DNA of 64,000 nt from Qipengyuania vulgaris. Its GTDB lineage: Bacteria > Pseudomonadota > Alphaproteobacteria > Sphingomonadales > Sphingomonadaceae. The notes under the pieces are model-generated. The model was not told the origin of the DNA, did no database searches, and was given only the letters and a program-made list of their open reading frames with translations. How positions within the stretch are numbered: position 1 is the stretch's first letter; the number at the start of each line of letters is the position of its first letter. Below, in pieces: positions 3,450-6,422 of this stretch. The stretch is from positions 558,001 to 622,000 of the forward strand of contig NZ_WTYC01000001.1 in assembly GCF_009827325.1 (NCBI RefSeq), read 5' to 3'. The position numbers and the translations under genes were made by a program.

Positions 3450-6422
3450 ATGAGCACCGAGCTATCCAAGACTTTCGACCCGGCAGAAATCGAGCAGCGC
3501 TGGTACGCGCATTGGGAAGAAAACGGCCTGTTCCGTCCCGAACGCCTGGACGCAGAGCCCTTCACCATCGTGAACCCGCCGCCGAATGTCACCGGCTCGC
3601 TCCACATTGGCCATGCGCTCGACAACACGCTTCAGGACGTGGTGATCCGTTATGAACGCCTGCGCGGCAAGGATGCGCTGTGGGTGGTAGGCACGGATCA
3701 TGCGGGCATCGCCACGCAGATGGTGGTCGAACGCCAGCTCGAGGCGCAGCAGGACAAGCGCACGAATTACAGCCGCGAAGACTTCGTCGACAAGGTCTGG
3801 AAGTGGAAAGAGGAAAGCGGCGGCCAGATTACCCGCCAGCTGCGCCGGCTCGGATGTTCGATGGACTGGTCCAGAGAGCAGTTCACGATGGACGAGCATT
3901 TCTCGAACGCCGTGCTCAAGACCTTCGTCAATCTCTATAACGACGGCCTGATCTATCGCGACAAGCGGCTGGTGAACTGGGATCCCAAGCTCAAGACCGC
4001 GATCTCCGATCTCGAAGTCGAGACCACCGATGTGAAGGGCGGCTTCTGGCACTTCAAATATCCGCTGGCAGATGGCGTCACGACGTCGGAAGGCAAGGAC
4101 TATCTCGTGGTGGCGACCACGCGGCCCGAGACGATGCTGGCCGATATGGCCGTGGCTGTGCACCCCGACGACGAACGCTACAAATCGGTCGTGGGCAAGG
4201 ACATCCTCCAGCCGATTACCGGTCGCCGCTTCAAGGTGATTGCGGATGAACATGCCGACCCCGAACTCGGTTCGGGCTGCGTGAAGATCACGCCGGGTCA
4301 CGACTTCAACGATTTCGAGGTCGGCAAGCGCGCAGGCATGAAGGCCGGCGAAATGCTCAACATGCTCGATGCCGAGGCGAGCGTCTGCCAGACCGCCGAT
4401 GGGCTCGTCCCGGAAGAGTTCCTCGGCATGCACCGCTTCAAACGCGACGGTGTCGATGGCGCACGCGAACTGGTGGTCGCGCGGATGAAGGAACTGGGCT
4501 TCCTCATCCCGCATGTCACAAAGGACAAGGACGGCGAACGCGTCGAGCACGACGCCGAACCGCGCACCATCGCCACTCCCTTCGGCGACCGCGGCGGCGT
4601 GGTGATCGAGCCCTGGCTGACCGACCAATGGTATGTCGATGCCGAAAAGCTCGCGAAGGCCCCGATCGAGGCGGTGAAGGACGGCACCATCGAAATCGTC
4701 CCGAAGAGCTGGGAAAAGACCTTCTTCAACTGGATGGAGAATATCCAGCCCTGGTGCGTCAGCCGCCAGTTATGGTGGGGCCACCGGATTCCGGCGTGGT
4801 ATGGGCCGGAAAAAGGAATTGACGGCGCGGTAACTGTGGGAAGACAGGGGGGTGAAGTAGCCGCATCCTACACGAACCCTCAGGCTTTCGTCGCGATGAC
4901 CGAGAAGGAAGCGATCGAAAAGGCCAAAGAATACTACGGTGCTGATACTCAGATCAGAATTTCGGACCGTGTTAGGTTACCGCTGGCCAACGTTGTCTAT
5001 ATATCTCGCGACGACGACGTCCTCGACACGTGGTTCTCCTCTGCGCTCTGGCCCTTCGCCACGCTCGGCTGGCCCGGTGACACCTACCAGCCCGTTCGCC
5101 CTGAGCTTGTCGAAGGGCCGCACTTCACTTCTGGATCAGCGGAGAAAGAAAAGGACGGGGCTTCGACAGGCTCAGCCCGAACGGATTTGGATGTTCGGGA
5201 AGGCGGCTGGGAAGAAAACCCCAATCTCCTGTCCAAGCACTATCCCAACGACCTGCTGATTTCCGGCTTCGACATCCTGTTCTTCTGGGATGCGCGCATG
5301 ATGATGCAGGGCATGCACCTGACGGGCAAGGCGCCGTGGCCACGGCTCTACCTGCACGGGCTGGTGCGCGCGGCGGACGGGGCGAAGATGTCCAAGTCCA
5401 AAGGCAATGTCGTCGATCCGCTCGGCCTGATCGACCAATACGGTGCCGATGCGCTGCGCTTCTTCATGTCGGCGATGGAAAGCCAGGGCCGCGACATCAA
5501 GATGGATGAGCGCCGCGTCGAGGGCTATCGCAACTTCGCGACCAAGCTCTGGAACGCGACGCGTTTCTGCCAGTCGAACGGCATCGGTGCGAGCACGAGC
5601 ATCGCCGCCCCTGCCGCAACGCAGGCGGTCAACAAGTGGATCATCGGCGAGGTTGTCGAAACGAAGGACGCGCTCGAGCAGGCCATGGCCGACCTGCGTT
5701 TCGATGCCGCAGCGAACACGATCTACCACTTCGTGTGGGATCGGTTCTGCGACTGGTACATCGAACTCATCAAGGGCAATTTCGACGAGGAAACCAGGGC
5801 AGTCGCCGGTTGGGCGCTCGACCAGATCCTCGTCATGCTGCACCCCTTCATGCCCTTCATCACCGAAGAACTGTGGTCGAAGCAGGGCAACCGCCCGGAC
5901 TATCCGCTGATCACCGCCAAATGGCCCGATCCGCGGGCCGAAGTGGATGCCGACGCGAAGGCGGAAATCGACTGGCTTATCGCGCTCACCAGCGCGGTAC
6001 GCACGGCGAAAAACGAACTCGGTATCGCTCCCGGCTCAAAGCTGGAAGCCTATTGCCCTTCACCCTCCGCGCTGGGTCGCAAGGTGGTCGAGGAAAACGC
6101 CGCCGCTATCGAACGCCTCGCGCGCCTCACACCGGTCCATTTCGCCGAAGCTCCGGGCGGTGCCGCGATGCAGGTGGCCGCGGGCGAGGATGCCTTTATC
6201 GTGCCATTGGAGGGCGTGATCGATATCGATGCCGAAAAGGCGCGCCTGACCAAGGCAATGGAAGCCTCCGCCAAGGAAGCGAAATCGCTCGAAGGGCGGC
6301 TCGGCAATGCGAACTTCGTCGAACGTGCCAAGCCGGAAGCGGTCGACAAGGCCCGTGCCGACCTTGCGCACCATACGGCGGAGATCGAGCGGCTGGAAAC
6401 GGCTCTGGCCCGGCTGGGCTAG
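3450..6422 (+). CDS. valS: Valine-tRNA ligase with in-frame palindromic insertion
   Basis: Charges tRNA-Val with valine (class Ia synthetase, 990 aa). HIGH is at residues 52-55 and KMSKS at 646-650. The editing domain (about 200-420), [10 protein letters not shown] segment, anticodon-binding domain and C-terminal coiled-coil tRNA arm (about 925-990) are all present. ATG at 3450 follows an AAAGGCGG-type ribosome site. Two regions exceed the E. coli protein. One is a stretch after [11 protein letters not shown], around residues 453-515. The other is about 31 residues (548-578) read from a palindromic repeat between the DTWFSS block and [13 protein letters not shown]. The frame stays open, so the enzyme is presumably functional with a surface loop. 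A tRNA-Val gene lies elsewhere in the window (48822). Confidence 0.97.
5092..5184 (+). repeat. Palindromic repeat element inserted in frame within valS
   Basis: Two inverted arms, about 26 bp each (5092-5117 and 5157-5184), flank a 39-bp spacer. The left arm reads CCGTTCGCCCTGAGCTTGTC and the complement of the right arm reads CCGTTCGGGCTGAGCCTGTC, so the arms match apart from a few positions. The element translates as VRPELVEG on the left and [10 protein letters not shown] on the right. Such repeats, and these translations, are familiar as dispersed palindromes of sphingomonads. The span, as bounded here, is 93 bp, a multiple of three, and leaves valS open. Exact ends are uncertain by a few bases. 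No second copy was noticed in this window. Confidence 0.85.

Follow-up and report, generated by a model that had tools for sequence, protein, structure and literature searches.

The locus considered here raises the question of how a palindromic DNA repeat can come to lie, in frame, within the gene of an essential tRNA synthetase, and how it can survive there. The gene is valS, which encodes an intact valine--tRNA ligase (ValRS) of 990 amino acids at positions 3450-6422 on the forward strand of the window, by which we mean the whole stretch of 64,000 nucleotides that was analysed. The host is a marine bacterium with a genome of 3.23 Mb in 19 contigs, and its nearest relatives, as judged by ValRS, are Qipengyuania species. 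The reading frame scores over the cut-offs of the NCBIfam models NF004349 and TIGR00422, and the valS match comes in two stretches, the best of which stops at residue 544-545. At 5092-5184 lies a palindromic repeat doublet of 93 bp (CCGTTCG...CGAACGG), with copies in the same genome and in congeners, that we call family A. It is built from two REP-like arms of 27 nt, a left one at 5092-5118 on the forward strand, translated as VRPELVEG, and an inverted right one at 5158-5184 on the reverse strand, which the coding strand reads as ASTGSART, with a spacer of 39 nt between them. The sequence-only reading that drew attention to the doublet had placed it exactly, with arms of about 26 nt and the same spacer. 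Both arms match TTCGNNNTGAGCNTGTCGAA with 0 mismatches. By eye, they are complementary to each other in about 22 of 27 positions, the mismatched positions being NNN triplets that form pairs within their own arm. From this follows that the doublet consists of two REP-like hairpins in inverted orientation.

A repeat finder at default settings did not have the doublet in its output. An Rfam match to AaHKsRNA41 has ends identical to those of the repeat, at a score of 19.9 against a gathering score of 97, and identity with an Rfam family was rejected because such matches are weak and far under their gathering scores. In comparison with insert-free relatives, the full extra stretch of the protein amounts to about 46 residues (5076-5213, forward strand), with alignment edges that are uncertain by a few codons, and 31 of these residues come from the repeat itself. 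The earlier claim that about 31 residues had been added with the frame intact is therefore right for the frame and for the share of the repeat, but too low for the total. An additional flank on the forward strand at 5185-5213 (LDVREGGWE.., delimited by eye) may hold a degenerate copy of the target GWPxxT, and by eye it is similar to the flank in a ValRS gene from another genus (L250).

The repeat had further been described as a dispersed one that usually lies between genes, and this agrees with the counts. Family A has nine full-length places in its own genome, valS included, and the other eight are judged intergenic from the open reading frames around them. For pgk, a mutase gene and fmt, the open frame reaches back into the repeat or through the whole of it, but the likely start codon comes after the repeat. 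In 60 congeneric genomes, a strict doublet pattern occurs 76 times, in 15 genomes with its own included, while the reversed control occurs 0 times, which means that the doublet is not a product of chance. When 75 of the 76 copies were read with their flanks (one copy in G026 was left out), nine were in frame within genes, i.e., in valS, ileS (twice), trmD (twice), ispZ/yciB (twice, at the N-terminus), glyS and dnaE, and 66 were not found within a gene. The nine are a lower bound, as the 66 were unflagged by a script and only partly inspected, and the script had overlooked two cases (L203 and L239) that were found later. Four further candidates (L182, L247, L197 and L229) lie, by inspection, upstream of start codons and were left out of the count. 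NCBIfam names one copy of each host gene of family A, the septation protein under the curated cut-offs (159.8 versus 196 bits). In glyS, three more copies (G001, G003 and G035) occupy the same site.

The insert in valS is specific to its lineage. On a FastTree phylogeny of 120 ValRS, from which the stretch of sites 1 and 2 had been removed, none of the 12 nearest ValRS has an insert of at least 20 residues at site 2, where the window has its doublet. Ten of them have the baseline loop of 6 residues, GWPxxTxLLxKHYPN, and the loops of the other two contain 13 (L108) and 10 (L102) residues. To see how the loop varies over the family, consider 149 evenly drawn genomes, 146 of which have a match; removal of G172 (too weak for valS) and G225 (contig end) leaves 144. 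At a threshold of 20 residues, by which loops of 16-19 residues (L111, L132, L283, L285 and L287) go uncounted, 34 of the 144 (33 loci read and the window) have a long loop, where the baseline is 6-7 residues, and these 34 span 30 genera by group codes. The other 110 were scored by a match running through site 2, and among the few that were inspected (L283 and L285-L289) three have loops of 16-18 residues. In the class as a whole, among the matches listed (150 of 176), none of 147 genomes outside the family breaks at site 2: their matches begin at query residue 1-9 and pass through the site, and the spans, compared by eye, exceed the query by at most about 7 codons.

Over 160 loci, a set that includes duplicates and chosen positives, the length of the site 2 loop is bimodal, with 6-7 residues in 97 cases and at least 20 in 52, and among the latter five genomes or sequences are represented twice. 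The DNA-fold z value is below -3 in 43 of the 52 long inserts, with -3.0 for the window, and the hairpin signal is weak or absent in nine, weakest in L257 (+0.6), L133 (-0.7) and L284 (-0.8). In a set chosen by similarity only (the window and 80 named genomes), the insert is present in 14 of 81 ValRS and absent from 67, and this distribution requires at least 13 changes of presence on the tree, gains and losses being indistinguishable. When all 120 ValRS are labelled with their insert family, 40 changes are required. Q. flava (L101), for example, has an insert of another family at site 2. One loop of ValRS has thus been lengthened repeatedly by different repeats, and the event in the window is not a singular one. 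Because different repeats sit at the same spot in many relatives, this loop appears to be a place where selfish DNA can land safely, and has done so recurrently.

The inserts at site 2 fall into six families plus seven unclassed cases, by a grouping of our own that is based on peptide motifs: VRPELVEG (A), PFASSEVE (B), GEVAARSADGG (C), PLPLAGGAGG (D), PSPLAGEGG (E) and GGVGVG (F). The families have no peptide in common, and the arms of A, B and C have no obvious sequence in common. The arms of D, E and F are alike, C- and G-rich, and these three families may be related, so that a cautious count gives four clearly unlike families. Dispersal of the repeat within the genome of its insert was found for A (G000), B (G084) and C (G198), the three families that this result covers, and related copies of the dispersed repeats occur in G173, G211 and G218. 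In three genomes (G016, G025 and G063), copies of family E besides the ValRS insert are few. Several species share this insert, which looks like an old insertion that has outlived its source.

The families share a bias in the frame in which they are read. Six example elements from five families were compared over their three coding-strand frames, and in each of them the frame used in valS is the one with the lowest net charge. The charge in the frame read, followed by the charges in the other two, is -1 versus +7 and +5 for A, -5 versus +8 and +6 for C, -4 versus +4 and +7 for D, and -4 versus +10 and +2 for E; for the two elements of B it is -3 versus +8 and +2, and -2 versus +9 and +2. Because A, C, D and E have stops in one of their two alternative coding-strand frames, the choice of frame is in part stop avoidance. 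In the two elements of B that were examined all three frames are stop-free, yet one and the same frame is used in all eight ValRS copies of this family. Among the ValRS copies of family A, the left arm is read in the same frame in six of six cases and the right arm in five of six.

There is also a bias in length. The length of family A is divisible by 3 in eight of the nine intragenic copies and in 23 of the 66 others (Fisher p=0.003), a p value that flatters the comparison because the nine copies are not independent: ileS, trmD and ispZ contribute twice each, and counted by gene the ratio is five of six. The exception is dnaE, where the right arm is read in another frame. As one third of the copies outside genes are divisible by 3, the filter acts after insertion. 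In 58 of the 66 other copies, one strand or both can be read through in the acidic frame, which leaves room for a reading where the repeat itself is protein-safe.

The distance from GWP to the core of the 5' arm is 20-35 nt in family A and 20-32 nt in family B. With a variation of up to 15 nt there is no single nucleotide target at the ValRS site, which speaks for a permissive loop over one DNA target. A target-site duplication was sought by eye in the flanks of 72 copies and by comparison of filled with empty sites; no consistent duplication was seen, and a possible degenerate one was seen in valS only. A search for a gene of the Y1_Tnp type found none in the own genome and none in all 15 strict-pattern genomes, and on this ground a RAYT was rejected as mobiliser; Y1_Tnp is present in five other congeners of the 60.

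Site 2 is one of several places where ValRS has been extended. Additions of at least 12 residues among the 81 ValRS occur at site 1, at site 2, at a third site (6 proteins) and once elsewhere. Site 1 (4809-5003 in the window, ValRS residues about 454-518) is a variable subdomain where the additions are mostly without a repeat. The window has its long form, the short form has 44-45 residues between RQLWWG and DTWFSS, and the two forms are distributed as a mosaic, with mostly short forms among the nearest relatives of the window (L098 and L108 are long). The third site, after LIKGNFDE, is empty in the window (5789-5790, forward strand) and filled with repeat-like additions in six of the 81 ValRS (L115, L117, L129, L133, L142 and L156), whose motifs include those of families A, C and D.

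Other conserved genes have been used in the same way. In TrmD, G035 and G082 have family A, G002 has a C-like repeat, and G020 and G079 have two other inserts. In IleRS, G020 and G061 have family A, and G079 has another insert. DnaE has A in G026 and B in G173, by eye in the same stretch ahead of the motif RLDYE/RLEFE, so that the TrmD site and the DnaE site are each common to different repeat families. UvrC has family C in G002 and G198, and single cases are MurB, an E2 acyltransferase (below its cut-offs) and kynureninase. Three candidate hosts (L388, L391 and L345) were rejected because the bracketed stretch shows no repeat, and two (L384 and L390), which have no NCBIfam match at an E value of 1e-20, were left out of the named hosts.

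In the structure of T. thermophilus ValRS (1GAX), site 2 maps between residues 473 and 476. An AlphaFold2 prediction from 43 sequences is modest overall, with a mean pLDDT of 70.6; values are below 50 for residues 541-610, but low values also occur within the core. The prediction makes disorder of the inserted loop plausible, and the loop would also be surface-exposed. The suggestion that such repeats create new protein loops stands as far as the added sequence is concerned, and gains no support as a claim about function.

The explanation that we find quite probable is scattered insertion followed by purifying selection, so that the inserts that remain are acidic, in frame and located in permissive loops. 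A non-autonomous mobile palindromic repeat, in the form of an inverted REP-like hairpin doublet, would have inserted into valS, presumably by transposition. Such repeats would spread through sphingomonad genomes with surviving copies mostly intergenic, and a copy in an essential gene would survive only if the frame is kept, the loop is permissive, and the frame read is acidic or neutral. The peptide from a surviving copy would be an acidic or neutral linker, probably unstructured and close to neutral for the enzyme. The ValRS stretch from GWP to KHYPN would be a permissive loop of this kind, and this would be why many lineages have an insert there, each from one or another of several repeat families; protein tolerance, not a DNA target, would then cause the hotspot. 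A wider reading, which we put forward as tentative, is that a few protein loops in sphingomonads are landing pads that unrelated palindromic repeats share and use again, and that the repeats are protein-safe by their stop-free acidic frame. As such a frame would make insertion into an essential gene survivable, coding insertion would be part of the life style of the repeats and not an accident. If, instead, local DNA such as a hairpin or a GC-rich motif draws the insertion machinery, the protein is irrelevant. Several unlike families at the same few sites, and outer flanks of A copies that are C-rich and then A/T-rich, would be expected in that case. The scatter of the ValRS insertion points over up to 15 nt and the unlike arms of A, B and C are, however, difficult to reconcile with it, and every case read at the site is in frame, though the search would hardly reveal broken genes. 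We regard DNA targeting as rather unlikely.

The insert could also have arrived with a valS segment imported from another lineage, with no transposition in the own lineage. Local gene conversion has some chance because L250, from another genus and distant on the tree, carries the same family between like flanking residues (TYQP/PYQP), although that gene is cut by a contig end and its genome is given as 77% complete. Beside the insert, third-position identity to the nearest relatives is about 0.65-0.8, as elsewhere in the gene, and sliding identity along valS reveals no recombination tract adjoining the insert; import is in our judgement unlikely, though worth keeping in mind. That the insert has been retained for a useful property of ValRS or its mRNA (interaction, regulation or stability) would fit the recurrent occupation of the same loop and the stable hairpins in most inserts. 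Against this, 67 of the 81 near relatives do without it, the families have no peptide in common, and what they do have in common, a low charge, is expected of a tolerated linker, so that a selected function is improbable. An ancient variable loop of non-mobile origin, such as site 1 of ValRS seems to be, can be given hardly any weight. Most inserts are palindromic at the DNA level, and among the matches listed the loop is unbroken in the 147 genomes outside the family. For the window insert such an origin is refuted by the dispersed genomic copies and by its absence from the 12 nearest ValRS: the sequence-only reading had named, as the case against an inserted element, relatives that share the residues and a genome with no further DNA repeat, and the reverse of both was found.

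Insertion and filtering of this kind invite comparison with known systems. A REPIN is two REP units in inverted orientation that form one hairpin. The REPIN/RAYT systems are similar to the present repeat in their two inverted REP units, and differ from it in that no RAYT (Y1_Tnp) gene accompanies the repeat, be it in its own genome or in the 15 that contain the strict pattern. The parallel with Rickettsia palindromic elements (RPEs), drawn already from the sequence, holds in the sense of "works like": in both cases the repeats are short, palindromic and dispersed, lie in frame in genes for conserved proteins and have one preferred reading frame with a conserved peptide (here, A left arm 6/6 and right arm 5/6; B 8/8). 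PMC2229807 and PMC10969869 describe RPEs as palindromes of 105-146 bp; one account counts 19 genes that contain them in frame, and one product proved active when tested. The sphingomonad repeat works like an RPE but is not one: by these descriptions it is set apart by another host order, its nearest relatives being Qipengyuania, and by its 93 bp versus 105-146 bp, and reuse of one site by different families is not described for RPEs in the passages of the two papers considered here.

A relation may also be sought among the CGTC REPs, which according to PMC3733652 are chiefly alphaproteobacterial, chiefly inverted dimers, without a transposase and with an unknown mobiliser, and in some cases intragenic. 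The traits given there are an unpaired CGTC/TGTC tag, a stem of 8-9 bp, A-T in the first two positions and a CCA tail. The arm of repeat A, CCGTTCGNNNTGAGCNTGTCGAA, is set beside them by description, and as to a transposase the search here covered one type, Y1_Tnp, which is absent. Intragenic REPs were already known from this group: the same 2013 paper lists such cases, with tRNA synthetases and TruB among the hosts, "E. lithoralis" (taken as Erythrobacter litoralis) and S. alaskensis among the species, and a REP at about the same site in recB of two Xanthomonas. In the passages of it that were considered, neither the ValRS site nor its several families come up. A literature search over titles and the beginnings of abstracts, together with these passages, found no report of one ValRS loop used by several families, nor of a charge rule for the frame read. 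In-frame selfish palindromes, best known from Rickettsia, are met in sphingomonads too, where they frequently enter essential enzymes and where different repeats use the same loop over and over. It thereby becomes testable whether repeats target sites or protein tolerance filters them, and whether repeats feed new sequence into old proteins, and the inserts serve as a natural map of the loops that tolerate insertions in ValRS, TrmD, IleRS, GlyRS-beta, DnaE and UvrC.

Some minor observations concern inserts of other kinds and copies between genes. The ValRS of L156 has at site 1 a further repeat-like peptide, GAGRNPDESPELDPGLRRGD, which gives it additions at three sites. The site 2 insert of L269 (RHSELVSESS..ILKHVQDDE) resembles what we take to be a repeat type of many other bacteria, and the IleRS insert in G079 presumably also resembles a repeat described before. 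Finally, repeat A lies directly upstream of a gene of the same type, which we assume to be murI-like, in both L007 (G000) and L229 (G035), and such re-used intergenic slots may parallel the landing pads within genes.
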